Positions 3,671 through 45,090 of a stretch of 51,617 bases of DNA are shown in pieces. The translations under genes and the position numbers were made by a program. The notes beneath the pieces are model-generated. The model had not been told where the DNA came from and did not search any database. It worked only from the letters and a program-made list of their open reading frames with translations. Every line of letters starts with the position of its first letter. Within the stretch, counting starts at the first letter, position 1. The DNA comes from a virus: the IMG/VR virus record IMGVR_UViG_3300011114_000297, positions 1-51,617 of that record; one strand, given 5' to 3'.

Positions 3671-4008
3671 GTCTATCTGACGAACAAGCCGCATTCCTGC
3701 TGGATGCCTGCAAACTCATTACCTACGCCACCGACCAAGGCTTTAAAGTCACCGGTGGTGAGCTTGCCCGTACACCTGAGCAGCAAGCCATTTACTTCAA
3801 GACGGGCCGATCAAAGACCATGAAGTCCATCCACCTGAAACGGTGCGCCATAGACTTGAACTTCTTCAAGGATGGGAAGATAATCTGGGACAAGGCGACC
3901 ATTGCGCCCTTGGGCGCATACTGGGAGTCACTGCACCCAAAAAACCGCTGGGGCGGGAATTTCTCCAACCTTGTAGACTGCCCTCATTTTGAGCGTAACG
4001 TGGGTTAA
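3667..4008 (+). CDS. Endolysin, M15-family zinc peptidase, 113 aa
   Basis: This is a single-domain protein with the M15 zinc-site motifs: SIHLKRCAIDLNFF (His56, Asp63) and CPHFE (His107). Such enzymes (L-alanyl-D-glutamate or D-Ala-D-Ala peptidases) cut the peptide part of peptidoglycan. The length is typical of T5-like endolysins, and there is no signal peptide, in keeping with release through the upstream holin. Its stop codon shares the TTAA at 4005-4008 with the stop of the convergent endonuclease gene. Confidence 0.88.
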   Translation: MSLSDEQAAFLLDACKLITYATDQGFKVTGGELARTPEQQAIYFKTGRSKTMKSIHLKRCAIDLNFFKDGKIIWDKATIAPLGAYWESLHPKNRWGGNFSNLVDCPHFERNVG

Positions 4009-4730
4009 AAAATGTTATTACCTTTTTTCTTCCAGTACAATTTCATGGCATCAGACTGTCGCTTGCGTTGCTCTGGTGAACGAAGTGTAGCGGCACGTTT
4101 TGCAGCAATAACCGGGTCACTGTTTAAGACTTTATGGAACTCCCGCATGGGGTGTGTTGTATCTAGTAGTTTTTGGCGCAGTGCTTCTTTGTGCGCGTCG
4201 CTATGTTTTGCTTTACCTATTTTTTCTTTTTTCCGTGCTTCACGAAAAGCGGGGTCATCCCATTTTGCCTTAATCTTGGCTCGGACTTCTGGGCGTTTAG
4301 CGGGGTTTGCGTCCCCCATAAATTTTTCACGCACATCAGCATCTTTCATCCGTTTACGTTGTTTTGCACGGGCTTCTAAGCTGCGAATGGGGTGGCGCGG
4401 ATCAAGCATGGCGATCCTAAGTTTTTCTTTGTGTTCTGGGGTTGGTGTATGAGTACCATCTCCGCCACTTGTAAGATTGGTGAGAGTTCCCTTGCCTGTT
4501 TGTATTCTTCCAAATTCAGCAATCAATGCGCGTTCAAGTGCAACCCCATCTTCGACAGAACTTACTGGTCGAATCTCTACGGTAATAAGATCTACCCCAA
4601 TTTCAATCAATTTTTGTTTACACAGCCAATTGCGGTTACCGTCGTTGCGTGGGTTTGTACGGCGGCGGTTTTTTGTAAATCCAACATAAAATGGAACATT
4701 GGCGGGGTCTTTCCAAATATATACAAACAC
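4005..4730 (-). CDS. GIY-YIG homing endonuclease, 241 aa
   Basis: The N-terminal GIY-YIG nuclease domain shows VYIWKD at residues 3-8 and YVGFTKNRR at about 15-23, then a catalytic-type Glu in ERALIAEFG and TNLTSGGDG. The C-terminal half is basic and carries repeated short helices (TPEHKEKLR, SDAHKEALR, SPEQRKRQS) like NUMOD DNA-binding motifs. Translation starts at GTG with AGGAG six bases upstream. It is the only minus-strand gene in the late block and is probably a free-standing mobile gene that cuts a related phage lacking it. Confidence 0.85.
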   Translation of the reverse strand: MFVYIWKDPANVPFYVGFTKNRRRTNPRNDGNRNWLCKQKLIEIGVDLITVEIRPVSSVEDGVALERALIAEFGRIQTGKGTLTNLTSGGDGTHTPTPEHKEKLRIAMLDPRHPIRSLEARAKQRKRMKDADVREKFMGDANPAKRPEVRAKIKAKWDDPAFREARKKEKIGKAKHSDAHKEALRQKLLDTTHPMREFHKVLNSDPVIAAKRAATLRSPEQRKRQSDAMKLYWKKKGNNIF

Positions 4731-20004: not shown

Positions 20005-20195
20005 CGGATGCGCCACGTGCGCACTCCGATGTGATCTTCTTTGACGACGATGTAGGACTTGACCCTGATACCGGCACGTTTTGCACCGCTGTCGATTGAG
20101 TAGATCATCTCAGCAAAGCGAAGGGTGGGGACAAAGAAACTGTCCCCTACCTCCATAACCTCAAACGGAAACGCCCAATCTGGCTCAGGAACCAT
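20001..20195 (-). CDS. Small hypothetical protein at the end of the replication operon, 64 aa
   Basis: The protein reads MVPEPDWAFPFEVMEVGDSF and ends GVRTWRIR. A core with VGDSFFVPT and an AKRAGIRVKS helix-strand resembles small phage proteins found next to replication genes. A GTG at 20207 would add four residues. It overlaps the primase gene's 3' end and shares the TTAA stop with the convergent giant virion gene. Function unknown. Confidence 0.65.
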   Translation of the reverse strand: MVPEPDWAFPFEVMEVGDSFFVPTLRFAEMIYSIDSGAKRAGIRVKSYIVVKEDHIGVRTWRIR

Positions 20196-23013
20196 TGAGC
20201 AGTTCACTCGGGATCTCTGTCCTAAACCAATACAGATATGCTGGATCGGTACTGATGGCGCTCTTCCAACCTGTAGTCAGCCGCCCCTTCTTGTCATCAA
20301 ACAGTACCTTGCGTTCCCGCATGTCTGCCTCAAACTCCCGTGCGCCGATCATGCGCTCTGATAGGTACTTCTTAAACTCAGACTTGGAGACTTGCAGAAG
20401 ATTCTCTTCACTGACGATACGGGCAACGATCTGGCCCCGGGGTTCCATTGTGGTCTTGCCATCTTTAAGCACAAGGATGTTCGCCATGTTCTTGTTGATG
20501 AAGTCGCCAAGCAGAGATTGGTAGTCTGTGAAGTTGACCCGCACCACTGTCTCTCTGATGTCGATCATCTGCTGGATAACCTTGGGATAGATACGCTCAA
20601 TGTCGTAGCCTGTCATATTGATCTCGTTGGCGATCGCTGCCCCTGTGAAGTTCGCCGCCACAAGGTTCTGGTAAAAACGGTACTCGCTGTAGTTACCGAA
20701 GTCCTTCAAGAATCTTGTCTCCCATTCCTTGATCCGATCCAGTACGTATTGGTCACCTTCCATCACGACGTGGCGCATAAATATCGGGCCAGCATGTCCA
20801 TAGTTGAACCGGAACGCATCGAAGATCTTTGGCCCTAGTGTGCCGTCCTGCTCAAGCAAGTGCGGCTTTCTCATGGCAAGCTCAATCAGTCGGGCAGCTT
20901 CGCCATCAAGGCTCATCTTCTTAGATTCCAATATGCCATAAAGCCCGTGGTTCGATGTAAGCACAGCGATCAGCGAGGCAGACATCTCATACTCCCGTTC
21001 AGCGTTGACCGAACTCTGCATCCTGATCTTGGCTTTGCCGTGAGAGATACCGTGGATCAGGTTGCCCAACTCCTCAGCCTTCTTGTCACCCACCTCGTCC
21101 AGACCAAACATCAGATTGTGCAGACCAAGGTAGCGCCCCGTCAATCCATTGTCAGTTGCCTTGACCACACTCAGATCCTTGGGATGCCCAAACACGCTCA
21201 AGCCACCATACATTGCGCCTGTCTTGCCGTTGCCAGACTTGCCAGTAAGGCTCATAACGACGCCCGAAGTGGACGTATATGGCATCAATGGAGAACCAAA
21301 CCCACTCATGGCGGCAAATGCGTGAAGTTCAAACTCTGGGTTGTTCAAGAAGTCTATCGACTCACGCCAACGCTGTAACGTGCCATGCTGTGTCAGGTGC
21401 TTGGCTATGCCCTTGACAAACGGCGAAGACGGTGCATCAATGATCTCCCCCTTGTATGTGATCTCTTTCTTGCCAATCACAAAGCTTCGTCTATCCCACT
21501 CGGGATCTGTACGCTCTTGCGTCCACCCCATCTGCATACGCATCAAAAGCGCTTTGTCGGTTGTCTGCATGAATTGTCCCCATTTAACGATGTAGTTCAT
21601 AAGATGTTGGTCATGTGCTGAGTTGAAGAAAACGCCATTGCTCGACATGATGGCCTTGAAGGCTTCCTTGGCATAGACATGCTTCATTGGAAGTAGGAAC
21701 TCACGGTATCCGTCTTTGGGTAATTCCAGACGCATCTGTAAGCACTCGCCGTCATGTGGACTGACCATGCGCACGATTGGGTAGAGATTGTTTGCAAGGA
21801 TGAGGATTGGATCGTCTTGGTGCTTCACGCCTTTCTTGTCAACCTTGGGAGCTGGGACAAAGTAAATACCGCCGTGCTGTCCCCGCACGTAGGGCATCAG
21901 AAATTCTGGGAAATCAGGAAGCGCTTGGGTATCCGATACTTCCCATACTGATTCCTCCTTATTTGCCTTGGCGGGTGTGAACTCTCGAGCAAGAGTGATG
22001 GGGCTGATGATGTTGCCTCTGTGCTGACATCCTTCGCATCGGCTGGGGTAGTTGTCAATGAACCAAGCGCAGGTGCGTGGAGCAGGAAAGCGACTTGCTT
22101 TTTCTTCTGTTTTTGCATGGTTGTAGTCAGGGTGATCCTCAGATAATTCATGTATGGCAGTAGCGCCGTCATCACAAAATTTGGCTATTGATAGCCCAGC
22201 GAACCACATAGGTTCTTCTAAAGTCTGTGCGTTCTCACATATAAATTTAATCTGTGCGCATCCACCTTCATCGTCTATGCTTTTTTGCGCCAGCACTGAG
22301 AACTTGCGGGGAAAGTTATCCAGCTTGAGCATCGCCTTGGTATCTTCATCCAAGCCTTTAGGTACGCTCGCAAGAATGTTCTGCGCCTCTTGTGGCTTTT
22401 CAATGATTTCACCTATATCACCATACAGGAATGATTTGAACTCCTGCCAGCTATACACGTGAATTGTGTTGGTGATGACCGACGTGGGGCGTGGGGTTCC
22501 CGTCTTGTAATTGAATGTCTCTGGACACCGCATGATCCGTGCGGCATCGGCTGTAACTACGGGGTCAATGGCTATGCACTCCAGACAGATTGTTTTAAAT
22601 ATTTCTGCGGCTGGTTTCCATACATCCTTAGGGATGTCTGTGTCCATAATCCAGTAGGCGTGTATGCCACCACCGGAGTCGATTACCACTGGGGTTGGTA
22701 ACCCTGCTACCCCTTCCAGTTTGTACAACGCAGCGTGGGCAGCTTCTTTACTGTCGTACTCTTTGCCTTCACCTACATCCAGATCAATGAAGAACGATCT
22801 GACGAATAAACAGTCATCTGCCTTACGGCTGTATCCTTCAAACGTCCCCAGTGCTACAAATACATCTCCATTCTTGTTTTTAAATTTTTCAATTTCTTCC
22901 AATACGCCGTCGAGTGTCTCTGCGAATCGGTTTGCCATTCTCCCGTTGGTCAAACCACTGACACAGTAGACACCCTGACTTGGCAATGCTTTCTCGTAGA
23001 ATTGTTTTAACAT
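20185..23013 (-). CDS. Primase-helicase: AEP-type primase fused to a helicase-like ATPase, 942 aa
   Basis: The N-terminal domain has archaeo-eukaryotic primase motifs: FFIDLDVG (Asp77, Asp79), SGGGIHAYW (His118) and RIMRCPETFNYK. A Cys-containing segment follows (CAWFIDNYPSRCEGCQHRG). The C-terminal domain, resembling DUF927-type or D5-like helicases, has Walker A GKSGNGKT at about 590-597 and a Walker B-like MFGLDEVGDKK, then LIAVLTSNHG. It would make primers and unwind the fork for the phage DNA polymerase encoded upstream in the same strand. Start ATG is preceded by a GGCGAG ribosome site. Confidence 0.85.
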   Translation of the reverse strand: MLKQFYEKALPSQGVYCVSGLTNGRMANRFAETLDGVLEEIEKFKNKNGDVFVALGTFEGYSRKADDCLFVRSFFIDLDVGEGKEYDSKEAAHAALYKLEGVAGLPTPVVIDSGGGIHAYWIMDTDIPKDVWKPAAEIFKTICLECIAIDPVVTADAARIMRCPETFNYKTGTPRPTSVITNTIHVYSWQEFKSFLYGDIGEIIEKPQEAQNILASVPKGLDEDTKAMLKLDNFPRKFSVLAQKSIDDEGGCAQIKFICENAQTLEEPMWFAGLSIAKFCDDGATAIHELSEDHPDYNHAKTEEKASRFPAPRTCAWFIDNYPSRCEGCQHRGNIISPITLAREFTPAKANKEESVWEVSDTQALPDFPEFLMPYVRGQHGGIYFVPAPKVDKKGVKHQDDPILILANNLYPIVRMVSPHDGECLQMRLELPKDGYREFLLPMKHVYAKEAFKAIMSSNGVFFNSAHDQHLMNYIVKWGQFMQTTDKALLMRMQMGWTQERTDPEWDRRSFVIGKKEITYKGEIIDAPSSPFVKGIAKHLTQHGTLQRWRESIDFLNNPEFELHAFAAMSGFGSPLMPYTSTSGVVMSLTGKSGNGKTGAMYGGLSVFGHPKDLSVVKATDNGLTGRYLGLHNLMFGLDEVGDKKAEELGNLIHGISHGKAKIRMQSSVNAEREYEMSASLIAVLTSNHGLYGILESKKMSLDGEAARLIELAMRKPHLLEQDGTLGPKIFDAFRFNYGHAGPIFMRHVVMEGDQYVLDRIKEWETRFLKDFGNYSEYRFYQNLVAANFTGAAIANEINMTGYDIERIYPKVIQQMIDIRETVVRVNFTDYQSLLGDFINKNMANILVLKDGKTTMEPRGQIVARIVSEENLLQVSKSEFKKYLSERMIGAREFEADMRERKVLFDDKKGRLTTGWKSAISTDPAYLYWFRTEIPSELLNGS

Positions 23014-23080: not shown

Positions 23081-23401
23081 TTAGTTCTTGTCGAATGACC
23101 TCCCGACCATTTCTTCAAGATAGGCTTTCGCTTGTGCATTGCTTGTCGCTGGAAGAATACCCTTTGCGGTATCACTCTCAATGAGGTCTGTGATAGCTTC
23201 GAGCTTCAGCATGTTTTTGTGTCGGATATGACCGCCACGGAACCAACTGTAGACCGTCATCCGAGTCACTTCCAACGCGTATGCTACATACTTTGCGGGC
23301 AGGTTTCCCTTCACGCAGGCATTAGCTAGGGCAATCCCTACTCTATTCGGGTTTGCCTTCTCCAACTCATCAAGGAACGGTTTACTGTATGTCCGTGGCA
23401 T
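23081..23401 (-). CDS. Helix-turn-helix DNA-binding protein, 106 aa
   Basis: Residues about 35-60 (LPAKYVAYALEVTRMTVYSW) fit a helix-turn-helix in which alternate positions match Cro/CI-like or homeodomain-like folds. The remaining sequence is helical with an AKAYLEEMVGRSFDKN tail. It sits between the primase and a putative ssDNA-binding protein, with an AAGGAG ribosome site. It may regulate early transcription or act in replication initiation; the target is unknown. Confidence 0.7.
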   Translation of the reverse strand: MPRTYSKPFLDELEKANPNRVGIALANACVKGNLPAKYVAYALEVTRMTVYSWFRGGHIRHKNMLKLEAITDLIESDTAKGILPATSNAQAKAYLEEMVGRSFDKN

Positions 23402-39893: not shown

Positions 39894-39914
39894 GCTTTCT
39901 CTCCTTTAATTAAC

Positions 39915-39933
39915 AACCCAGCGATTGCTGGCC
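39915..39933 (-). repeat. CCCAG hairpin element before the DUF3150-like gene
   Basis: CCAGC and GCTGG pair around a 4-nt loop at 39918-39931, with AACAA before and CTCTTACTT after on the plus strand. It lies in the leader between the promoter at 39978-40006 and the start codon at 39893. Confidence 0.8.
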
Positions 39934-39977
39934 TCTTACTTACCAACCGAGACAGATTGCTTCCCGACTCAGTTATA

Positions 39978-40006
39978 AGTATAACACAACTTGACATATA
40001 CGTCAA
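39978..40006 (-). promoter_or_regulatory. Early sigma-70-like promoter 2 with palindromic operator
   Basis: On the minus strand the -35 is TTGACG, the spacer is 17 nt and the -10 is TATACT. The palindrome TTGACATATACGTCAA (39991-40006) covers the -35 box. It is nearly identical to the promoter at 42652-42680. It would drive the long early operon that starts with the DUF3150-like gene. Confidence 0.85.
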
Positions 40007-42191: not shown

Positions 42192-42212
42192 AAAATTCTC
42201 CTTGGTGATAGA

Positions 42213-42238
42213 TAGCAACCCAGACATGGCTGGGCCGC
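42213..42238 (-). repeat. CCCAG hairpin element between early genes
   Basis: CCCAG and CTGGG pair at 42219-42234, flanked by GATAGCAA and CCGCTGATTGA on the plus strand. It lies between the 42259-42552 and 41826-42191 genes, just upstream of the latter's ribosome site. Confidence 0.85.
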
Positions 42239-42258
42239 TGATTGAAACAACTGTGTGA

Positions 42259-42552: not shown

Positions 42553-42587
42553 GACTATCTCCTAAATGGTCAACAACTTGAAATAAC

Positions 42588-42607
42588 AACCCAGCAACTA
42601 CTGGGTC
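42588..42607 (-). repeat. CCCAG hairpin element in the leader of the early operon
   Basis: CCCAG (42590-42594) and CTGGG (42601-42605) with an AACAA/TCACTGATTA context on the plus strand. It is in the untranslated leader between promoter 1 and the start at 42552. Confidence 0.85.
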
Positions 42608-42651
42608 ACTGATTAGAGTCGGTTAAGCTTTTCTTCCCCGACCCAATTCAT

Positions 42652-42680
42652 AGTATAGCACAACTTGACATATAGGTCAA
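42652..42680 (-). promoter_or_regulatory. Early sigma-70-like promoter 1 with palindromic operator
   Basis: On the minus strand the -35 is TTGACC, the spacer is 17 nt and the -10 is TATACT. The palindrome TTGACATATAGGTCAA (42665-42680) covers the -35 box. The transcript should start near 42645 and run into the gene at 42552. The flanking AACTATTTT upstream and GTCGGG leader downstream are also shared with promoter 2. Confidence 0.87.
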
Positions 42681-42711
42681 GTGTTTATATAAAATAGTTA
42701 ATCCAGCGGTT

Positions 42712-43083
42712 TGTTCTACGTGTTCTAGGTTTGTTCTATTTTCCTATGTAAAGTTAGAACAAAAATGGGTATTACTTGAAGCGGGTTTTGTGCTGTTTCT
42801 GTAAGGGGAAGTATTATTATTTTATAAAATAAATAGATAGATATGAAACTTGTTCTAATGTTCTACTGTTTTTAGAGGGGATACGGTTTTATTTCGATTT
42901 TTTCCGATGCGAGTTTGCACTCAGCAGGTAAGTCTTGATCTTGCAAAAATCTTCAAAAATAAGACCCCTATGCTCAAAATCGTAGAACATTAGAACAAAA
43001 AAAAATTCTTCAATGCTGACAAGGGGTTACAAGCGTTTTTCTGTTCTACTCGACCTCATTTGTTCTACTCTTTTTTTAGAACA
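42712..43083. repeat. Array of eleven TGTTCTA/TAGAACA heptamers, candidate origin or control region
   Basis: Exact copies start at 42712, 42721, 42732, 42851, 42859, 43042 and 43061 on the plus strand and at 42755, 42983, 42991 and 43077 on the minus strand. The stretch is A/T-rich with no gene. Chance would give well under one copy. The gap 42553-43344 holds no other open frame that looks real. Confidence 0.85.
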
Positions 43084-43206
43084 TGTATAGTTAGCTCGGA
43101 GAAAACACTGTTTTACATCAGCTAAGTTTCTCAGAAAATAACTTTGTAGGTTTGTGGTGGCATCGCTAAAGTTTATAAGAACTGATGGACAAGGATTCTA
43201 ACTAGC

Positions 43207-43226
43207 GACCCAGCCATTGCTGGCCT
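43207..43226 (-). repeat. CCCAG hairpin element between the iteron array and the small units
   Basis: CCAGC and GCTGG pair at 43210-43223, with CTAGCGA before and CCTCTTAAATAAG after on the plus strand, closely matching the copy at 39915. Confidence 0.8.
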
Positions 43227-43264
43227 CTTAAATAAGTTTCTTGTGCCATGCTACCCGATCGACT

Positions 43265-43299
43265 CGCGCGCGAGGAAATATAACTGGTTTCAAATAGGC
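43265..43299 (-). repeat. GAAATATAACTGG element, copy 1
   Basis: CGCGCGAGGAAATATAACTG with following GTTTCAAA. It stands next to a terminator and is repeated at 44119-44156 and 45091-45122. No clear -10/-35 pair explains it. Confidence 0.85.
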
Positions 43300-43300
43300 A

Positions 43301-43336
43301 AAAAAAATCCCGCATGGCGTGAACCATGCGGGATTT
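43301..43336 (-). terminator. Rho-independent terminator after paralogue 1
   Basis: AAATCCCGCATGG and CCATGCGGGATTT pair around a 6-nt loop and are followed on the minus strand by T-rich sequence. It lies 8 bp after the stop of the gene at 43345. Confidence 0.9.
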
Positions 43337-43344
43337 AATCTAAC

Positions 43345-43950
43345 TTAGGGTTTCCACTTAGCTAGGAAAGCAATGATTGCTTCATTCAACCTTGCTTCAT
43401 CAGCCGTGGCATCGCCTCGCCGTTTAGAGTTTTTGCACTTATCTTTCATTGCTGGGATGACACCCTTTTTAGGGTCAGTCAGCCATTCAGCAAAATCTAG
43501 ATTGGGAGCCCGTGGCGTAGGATTATCTTTCTTAAGGATATCCCTAGCTTTGCCCTTAAGGTCAGACAATGCGCCCTGACAATAGTCATTGATGCTGCTT
43601 CTGATCGGTTGCATCAGTGCATACATTGCTGGCTGAGACAATTTCAGTTTGCCAAACTCTTGCTGGGTGTAGCTGAAAATGTGGTGCATTCCAATTTCAA
43701 CCTTTTCAACCTTTTTATTTTTAACCATGTCAGCCGTGGCTTCGACATAATTCCCGTCGATCACCGCATACAGTTTTGCGGGATGTGTTGCATCCCAGCG
43801 TTGACGATACCCAGTGTAGAGCGCCGCTCTAGCTTCATCAGAGACATTCTCAGGAAAGCCCACAATCCGATCTATTGCAAATCGTGCGTGAGATGTAAGT
43901 GCATCACCAGTACCAGCCTGAGCAAAGCCCAATTCGATTAAGTCTTTCAT
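43345..43950 (-). CDS. Early protein of a tandem paralogue pair, 201 aa
   Basis: The sequence matches the gene at 44205 along its length: IVGFPENVSDEARAALYTGY, IDGNYVEA, SYTQQEFGKL, PAMYALMQP, RAPNLDFAEW and KRRGDATADEARLNEAI all have counterparts. It is about 34 residues shorter at the N terminus. Predicted soluble alpha/beta with a basic C-terminal part. It has its own leader and terminator. Function unknown; an early DNA-binding or host-takeover role is possible. Confidence 0.72.
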   Translation of the reverse strand: MKDLIELGFAQAGTGDALTSHARFAIDRIVGFPENVSDEARAALYTGYRQRWDATHPAKLYAVIDGNYVEATADMVKNKKVEKVEIGMHHIFSYTQQEFGKLKLSQPAMYALMQPIRSSINDYCQGALSDLKGKARDILKKDNPTPRAPNLDFAEWLTDPKKGVIPAMKDKCKNSKRRGDATADEARLNEAIIAFLAKWKP

Positions 43951-44050: not shown

Positions 44051-44060
44051 GACTTAAATA

Positions 44061-44084
44061 GCATCCCAGCCAGTACTGGGACGT
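44061..44084 (-). repeat. CCCAG hairpin element between paralogues
   Basis: TCCCAG and CTGGGA form an 18-bp palindromic unit (44064-44081), flanked by AAATAGCA and CGTTAAATAATG. Confidence 0.85.
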
Positions 44085-44118
44085 TAAATAATGTTTTTGC
44101 TCACGCACTCACTCTCCA

Positions 44119-44204: not shown

Positions 44205-44912
44205 TTAACCGATCAATACAGCCTTAAATGCGACGATCGCTTTATCAAGCTTTTCGGGGTCAGCGGTCTTGTCACCGCGTTTTTTTGCAGTCTTGCATCG
44301 TACCCGCATAGTCTCTAATACGCCAAGGGTTTCAAGCTTGCCGTTGACTGTTTCTTTACGATCGACCCAGTCGATAAAGTCTAGGTTCGGTGCGCGTTCG
44401 GTTGCACCTGCCTGTTTCTTTATGATTTTGCGTGCCCGACTTTTCAGATTACCTAAACAGCCCGACATAAAGTCGTTAACAGGTTCGCGCCAAGATTTCA
44501 AGACCGCGTACTTTGCAGGGTCTGTAGATCTAAGCTTGCCGTATTCCTGTTGAGAATACGAGTAGACAACGTCTACACCGATAACGACTTTTTCTTTTAC
44601 CTTGTCTTGCATATCTTTATCAAGACTATCAAGTAACAGATAATTGCCGTCTACGATGCCGTAAGTAACAGGCGCGTGCTTGTCGTTATAGCGCATCATG
44701 TAACCCTTGTACAATTTAGCCTTAGAGTCGTCGTCGATCTTTTCGGGAAAACCGTCGATTGAACTAATAGCGTATTTCGCTTGGTTGTCTGAGGCATCCT
44801 CAGTCTTGCCCTGTTGATAACCAAGGTCTATTAACGATAATATCGGGGCATCCAAAGCGATGGACAAGGGGTTGACCGCGTAAGCGATCGGGGTTTTTTT
44901 GGCTGTTGCCAT
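44205..44912 (-). CDS. Early protein of a tandem paralogue pair, 235 aa
   Basis: Homologous along its length to the gene at 43345 (IDGFPEKIDDDSKAKLYKGY; VDGNYLLL; SYSQQEYGKL; RAPNLDFIDW; KKRGDKTADPEKLDKAI). It has an extra basic N terminus, MATAKKTPIAYAVNPLSIAL. The AGGAG site lies seven bases before ATG. It is a single-gene unit with its own leader and terminator. Function unknown. Confidence 0.72.
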   Translation of the reverse strand: MATAKKTPIAYAVNPLSIALDAPILSLIDLGYQQGKTEDASDNQAKYAISSIDGFPEKIDDDSKAKLYKGYMMRYNDKHAPVTYGIVDGNYLLLDSLDKDMQDKVKEKVVIGVDVVYSYSQQEYGKLRSTDPAKYAVLKSWREPVNDFMSGCLGNLKSRARKIIKKQAGATERAPNLDFIDWVDRKETVNGKLETLGVLETMRVRCKTAKKRGDKTADPEKLDKAIVAFKAVLIG

Positions 44913-45020: not shown

Positions 45021-45032
45021 CCGCTATTTAGC

Positions 45033-45052
45033 GATCCAGCAACTACAGGGTC
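45033..45052 (-). repeat. CCCAG-type hairpin flanked by 13-bp direct repeats
   Basis: GATCCAG and CAGGGTC form a slightly degenerate copy. It is bracketed by CTATTTAGCGATC at 45024-45036 and 45054-45066, which may be the trace of its insertion. Confidence 0.7.
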
Positions 45053-45090
45053 ACTATTTAGCGATCTTGCCCGCACACGCACGCCACACA

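Follow-up and report, generated by a model that had tools for sequence, protein, structure and literature searches.

A conserved heptamer array as the probable replication origin of a large family of uncultured phages and the primase-helicase proposed to read it

The heptamer array and its layout

Does a dense cluster of one short repeat in a gene-free gap mark the place where an uncultured phage starts to copy its DNA, and if so, which of its proteins reads the repeats? The window that we analysed is an IMG/VR virus record of 51,617 bp, and all coordinates given below are window positions. Exact copies of TGTTCTA or its complement TAGAACA start at 42712, 42721, 42732, 42755(-), 42851 and 42859 in the left part of the cluster and at 42983(-), 42991(-), 43042, 43061 and 43077(-) in the right part, which confirms the eleven copies between 42712 and 43083 that a preliminary description of this DNA had reported. 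The whole window holds 21 copies compared to 6.1 expected. In 1000 dinucleotide shuffles of the 792-bp gap at 42553–43344, the mean number of heptamers was 0.17 and the maximum was 2, and no 7-mer whatever reached more than 6 copies. A motif-free search returned TGTTCTA as the most over-clustered 7-mer in the whole window. The array was also said to be free of genes, and our ORF scan found no ORF of at least 40 aa in it. Its parts are as follows.

42712–43083, no strand assigned: iteron array of 11 TGTTCTA heptamers, proposed replication origin (motif search; syntenic array in relatives)
42712–42761, no strand assigned: left satellite iterons (42712+, 42721+, 42732+, 42755-)
42809–42848, no strand assigned: A/T-rich tract, the least stable 40 bp in the whole window, proposed DNA unwinding element
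42851–42865, plus strand: inner core pair TGTTCTAaTGTTCTA, direct, 8 bp apart
42914–42927, no strand assigned: conserved box in mid-core, TTTGCACTCAGCAG, reading CTGCTGAGTGCAAA on the other strand (alignment of relatives)
42983–42997, minus strand: opposing core pair TAGAACAtTAGAACA
43042–43083, no strand assigned: right satellite iterons (43042+, 43061+, 43077-)

The two core pairs face each other and span 147 bp when measured between their outer edges, and the A/T tract abuts one of them. A generic detector of this geometry (a direct 6-mer pair with an inverted pair 85–190 bp away) found a single site in the 51.6 kb, the array core, and nothing in eight stretches from other phages. The frequent pairing of copies at 8–11 bp that had been described holds for four neighbouring pairs (8, 8, 9 and 11 bp), while the other neighbours are 16, 19, 23 bp or more apart. 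A LexA-type box, GTTC-N7-GTTC, was rejected as it fits just one heptamer spacing. The Rfam scan of the window gave no match, and the literature search for the heptamer gave unrelated matches only. To the right of the iterons, at 43090–43200, lies a second repeat type in one to three copies, which reads TTCTGAGAAACTTAGcGATG in the window; it occurs at the same place in L015, L020, L021 and G033 and reads CATCGCCTACCGTTCTCAGAACTGA in others, and these repeats are possibly sites for another protein.

Conservation, concerted change and melting in relatives

Using the flanking genes as bait, we obtained 15 distinct contigs, and the array was found wherever a contig reaches the locus, with spacings nearly unchanged in relatives down to 48% protein identity. 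The TGTTCTA core pattern was found in 56 viral contigs, and a search of the bacterial genome collection with this pattern found no array. The core is 146–148 bp long in most of the 56 contigs and 134–136 or 141–142 bp in some, and its geometry persists even where the sequence in between has diverged. Cores with a similar layout and a less constant length are spelled TGTTCCA in at least 120 contigs and AATTCCA in 13. Each genome has one such array, and the repeats and their spacing are kept in well over 100 relatives. Core lengths cluster near 120, 128 and 140 bp (Rayleigh R 0.50 at 10.5 bp, n=111), which is suggestive of helical phasing, with the loci being related and the best period being 11.2.

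The copies within one genome switch together between TGTTCTA, TGTTCCA, AATTCCA and AAGTTCT while their positions are kept; L306, L331, L323 and L289 are examples in which the whole layout stayed intact. This concerted drift suggests that one sequence-specific protein reads all copies. The array is also recovered when genomes are chosen independently of it, since all eight contigs that were found with an HTH gene as bait and contain the locus have both the array and the melting minimum described below, with three further contigs (G038, G039, G042) stopping before the locus and so being uninformative on the array. With the gene for a 306-aa protein as bait, array and melting minimum were present in most loci. 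In the distant contig G106 (L542), an AATTCCA array begins right after the stop codon of a DUF927 gene, which ties the array type to the type of DUF927 helicase independently of synteny. A scan of relatives shows that the array is conserved in phages with the same replication genes, contrary to one of the two refuting conditions named in the preliminary description. In the analysed stretches of HTVC027P, HTVC023P, 023Pt_psg01 and DSL-LC04, which have only the terminase in common with the window phage, and of Pseudomonas phage Rollin (26% for the primase), there was neither a TGTTCTA cluster nor a core of this geometry, and no relative with this origin was found among the named isolate phages compared.

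We calculated duplex stability from nearest-neighbour energies in 40-bp windows over the whole genome. The genome-wide stability minimum falls inside the array in all 16 array-bearing genomes, in all 8 HTH-chosen genomes that contain the locus and in all 5 additional genomes that carry other iteron classes, and thus in 29 of 29 testable genomes; with windows of 60 or 100 bp, a few genomes contain at least one less stable site outside the array. The cumulative GC-skew minimum, which had been proposed as a check, falls within 5 kb of the array in 28 of the 29 genomes (the exception is G036). However, transcription diverges 1–4 kb from the array and coincides with the skew minimum, so that GC skew is weak evidence here and was rejected as proof of an origin. 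At third codon positions, the coding-strand skew is +0.040 in genes to the left of the array and -0.038 in same-strand genes between the array and the terminase, and the right-side value is lower in 11 of 12 genomes; since the genes between array and terminase mostly belong to one family, this flip is only suggestive. DnaA boxes (TTWTNCACA) number 3 in the window compared to 5.7 expected, with none in the array, and Pfam scans of 25 window proteins, among them the products of most of the conserved early genes, found no Rep_3-type initiator.

Taken together, the array geometry, the genome-wide melting minimum, the single array per genome, the linkage to the replication module and the concerted drift support the earlier suggestion of origin iterons, and the array is very probably where DNA replication starts in a large phage family whose members are uncultured and mostly aquatic.

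The candidate reader and the competing explanations

The preliminary description had left open whether the repeats are origin iterons or clustered sites for a phage regulator, and had named the HTH proteins at 23081 and 30711 as candidates. The relevant genes of the window are the following.

20185–23013, minus strand: primase-like N-terminus fused to a DUF927 helicase, proposed initiator (PHROG, Pfam, NCBIfam, phmmer)
20188–20451, minus strand: C-terminal winged-helix-like domain of the same protein, proposed iteron reader; wing Arg911 at 20281–20283
23081–23401, minus strand: XRE-like HTH protein, encoded immediately upstream of the initiator gene, unlikely reader

The DUF927 domain of the 20185–23013 protein matches Pfam PF06048 above the cut-off (E 2.4e-19), and phmmer aligns the protein with PDB 5dgk (E 1.2e-9). 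Its N-terminal 200 aa or so match PHROG DNA-primase profiles (phrog_10514, E 4.6e-8), and the motifs DLDVG and SGGGIHAYW were seen by eye. The C-terminal domain gave an AF2 model with a pLDDT of 79.5, and the top Foldseek matches of this model are 5dgk (E 1.3e-3) and 8tch (E 3e-3), both with a probability of 1.00 and TM-scores of 0.38–0.45. The primase-helicase is found in every checked array contig of at least 40 kb, bar one that lacks the whole early arm. Proteins common to all 16 array genomes include the primase-helicase, HTH 23081, an SNF2-type helicase, a nuclease, PolA, a MoxR-like ATPase and the 306-aa protein of unknown function. The sole match of the 306-aa family in the bacterial collection is L537 (CAIPLJ010000099.1), a 7.6-kb contig in an uncultured-actinobacterium bin, which is possibly a hint to the host or a mis-binned virus.

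In order to separate the candidate readers, seven genomes with a changed iteron were used, and the identity of each protein was compared with the expectation from the other proteins. The primase-helicase falls 11.8 points below expectation between TGTTCTA and AATTCCA genomes, or about 3 SD (SD among TGTTCTA pairs 4.0), and 8.2 points for AAGTTCT. The corresponding drops of HTH 23081 are 4.2 (AATTCCA) and 8.5 points (AAGTTCT) with an SD of 5.4, and most other proteins show a smaller drop or none. Since the AA genomes differ more among themselves in the primase-helicase, the whole-protein drop partly reflects faster change. Over the last 80 aa or so of the protein, identity is 74% within TGTTCTA genomes, 70% from these to TGTTCCA genomes and 39% to AATTCCA genomes, while it is 69% within the AATTCCA genomes.

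One residue in the wing of this domain follows the repeat. It is Arg in 37 of 37 TG-type genomes, down to 21% identity, within KKGRLTTGWK or KKRM/KKxR[LMIV]. In the seven AA-type genomes it is His six times, within KKHLETGWK, and Gln once, within KKQMAAGWK in G104, which stands apart from the six on the tree, so that the His and Gln switches are independent. The tree requires that AA-type arrays arose at least three times, and on it the class comprises one clade and two long-branch lineages, G104 and G106, and the wing of G106 is not alignable. Between TGTTCTA and TGTTCCA genomes, no diagnostic residue is valid across all lineages. Contacts of Arg with G and of Gln with A are common between proteins and DNA, and we give an even chance to the idea that the residue at Arg911 recognises the first two iteron bases directly, with Arg corresponding to TG and His or Gln to AA. 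If this is true, the helicase sequence of an uncultured phage could serve to predict its origin and the specificity of that origin, and the repeats would co-evolve with their reader while a fixed geometry for loading two rings is kept.

An arrangement as in lambda O/P, in which the array is the origin and the XRE-like protein at 23081–23401 reads the iterons and recruits the primase-helicase, was the reading first favoured: the protein has a confident HTH model, is present in 16 of 16 array genomes, has its gene immediately before that of the helicase in almost all of 80 loci and shows an altered helix in G035 and G037. It was dropped because G045, G036, G056 and G065 changed the repeat with the helix unchanged and because the TGTTCCA phages vary the helix. 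The recognition helix TRMTxxSWFRG is essentially the same in TGTTCTA phages, in the TGTTCCA phage G045 and in AATTCCA phages, whereas TGTTCCA phages differ from one another (SRMTVYAW, SRNTVHLW, SRQTLHMW), and G081 has the array and no match to the HTH protein. We therefore regard this arrangement as unlikely. HTH 30711 was rejected as the reader since it occurs in only 3 of the 16 array genomes. Hence neither HTH candidate bears out the regulator reading, and it is the primase-helicase that changes along with the repeat.

Two explanations unrelated to the start of replication were also weighed. The early promoter that had been described beside the array does exist (TTGACC-17-TATACT, minus strand, 42680 to 42652), and close relatives retain it. 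The closest heptamer is about 30 bp upstream of its -35 box, so that the array might be an operator or enhancer of this promoter. We consider this very unlikely, since a second copy of the promoter module at 39963–40006 lacks adjoining heptamers, the symmetric core of fixed length with the genome-wide melting minimum lies 170–320 bp upstream of the promoter, and the G106 array directly follows the helicase gene. A centromere-like or packaging (pac) site would also suit a repeat cluster in a gene-free gap about 3 kb from a putative terminase small-subunit gene. However, the array is neither inside nor next to the terminase genes in any genome examined, its type follows the replication helicase while terminase identity between TG and AA genomes (81–83%) is close to that within TG genomes (83–92%), and neither model gives the melting tract a role; this explanation is the least credible of those considered.

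The preferred reading is that the C-terminal winged-helix-like domain of the 20185–23013 protein recognises the heptamers. Two helicase rings would nucleate on the two opposing core pairs, with additional binding provided by the satellite repeats. The complex would then open the adjacent A/T tract at 42809–42848, and the two rings would load and move apart with bidirectional forks, while the fused primase would make primers that the phage PolA extends. Judged from sequence, this joint reading (the array as the family origin, recognition by the C-terminal domain of the phage primase-helicase, two rings and A/T opening) is likely. Speaking against it are the 20 kb between array and initiator gene, the Foldseek E-values and TM-scores given above, the make-up of the AA class and the lack of a residue that separates TGTTCTA from TGTTCCA in all lineages. 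It provides a testable origin and initiator for a large uncultured phage family, and the concerted repeat switches together with the matching protein residue are natural experiments on a joint change in initiator and origin specificity.

Comparison with known initiators and features flanking the array

In the staphylococcal pathogenicity islands (SaPIs), the iterons are read by the C-terminal domain of Rep (PMC7581432). The system proposed here is similar to SaPIbov1 Rep (PDB 8tch) in having iterons that adjoin an A/T-rich melting tract and possibly in the fold of the C-terminal domain, which matches 8tch by Foldseek. The differences are a helicase with a fused primase, a phage of about 60 kb as the replicating element, and the place of the origin. 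In SaPIs the origin lies directly downstream of rep, whereas here 20 kb separate it from the initiator gene in the window and the two are also distant in relatives; the SaPI-like order occurs in the distant contig G106 only. The Cch protein of SCC elements, for which no origin had been identified before that work, contains DUF927, with no fused primase reported (PMC7581432). SCCmec Cch (PDB 5dgk, NF047345) shares the DUF927 MCM-like helicase with the window protein, which carries a fused primase and scores far under the NCBIfam equivalog cut-off (E 1e-9; 37 compared to 700 bits for NF047345, SCC Cch1). The domain order resembles that of the PrimQH family (primase, PriCT/Zn, DUF927 or VirE ATPase, winged helix), of which the window protein is a candidate member. 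Primase-DUF927-winged-helix proteins have been described, and their winged helix was suggested to read the origin (PMC5862659); that paper predicts origin reading only, whereas here there are a matching origin and a co-varying residue.

The origin most likely works in a SaPI/Cch-like way, which would link phage replication to the self-loading DUF927 helicases of staphylococcal islands. We did not file it as a member of the SaPI/Cch type because the origin is not beside the initiator gene and the binding is putative. The alpha protein of phage P4 and its ori1 and crr sites are, we assume, comparable in combining a primase-helicase initiator, a C-terminal DNA-binding domain and short iterons, and presumably differ in the helicase family and in having two separate origin sites.

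Several other features lie around the array.

42652–42680, minus strand: sigma-70-like early promoter reading away from the array (left), palindrome over the -35 box
43345–43950, minus strand: conserved gene of unknown function beside the array; in relatives it lies some 0.6 kb to the right
44205–44912, minus strand: tandem paralogue of 43345–43950
39907–39938, 42209–42240, 42580–42611, 43199–43230, 44055–44086 and 45029–45061: copies of a small hairpin element

The early promoter module is duplicated (39963–40006 and 42637–42680, 84% identical over 44 bp), and both copies have the palindrome CTTGACatatAnGTCAAG over the -35 box, one of them without iterons. The genes at 43345–43950 and 44205–44912 belong to a fast-evolving family of about 200 aa that flanks the origin in relatives; neither has a Pfam or PHROG match, and the first has no NCBIfam match either. 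The hairpin element, ACCCAG-N5-CTGGg, occurs in six mostly intergenic copies and has no Rfam match. Its stem differs in relatives (e.g. CCACGC...GCGTGG) and is alike across the copies within one genome, which is possibly another case of concerted change. A homing-endonuclease-like gene (4005–4730, minus strand; phrog_314, E 1e-9) is inserted against the late operon and has no relative in the other 15 genomes. Closed relatives are 62–65 kb long with end repeats of 123–127 bp, so that about 10 kb that would join the two ends of the window are probably missing from it. In L014 and L289, a short HTH-like ORF (MLLKPIESQ... and MFTKMIYR...) directly follows the array, and the same place in the window holds the promoter and a 97-aa gene.
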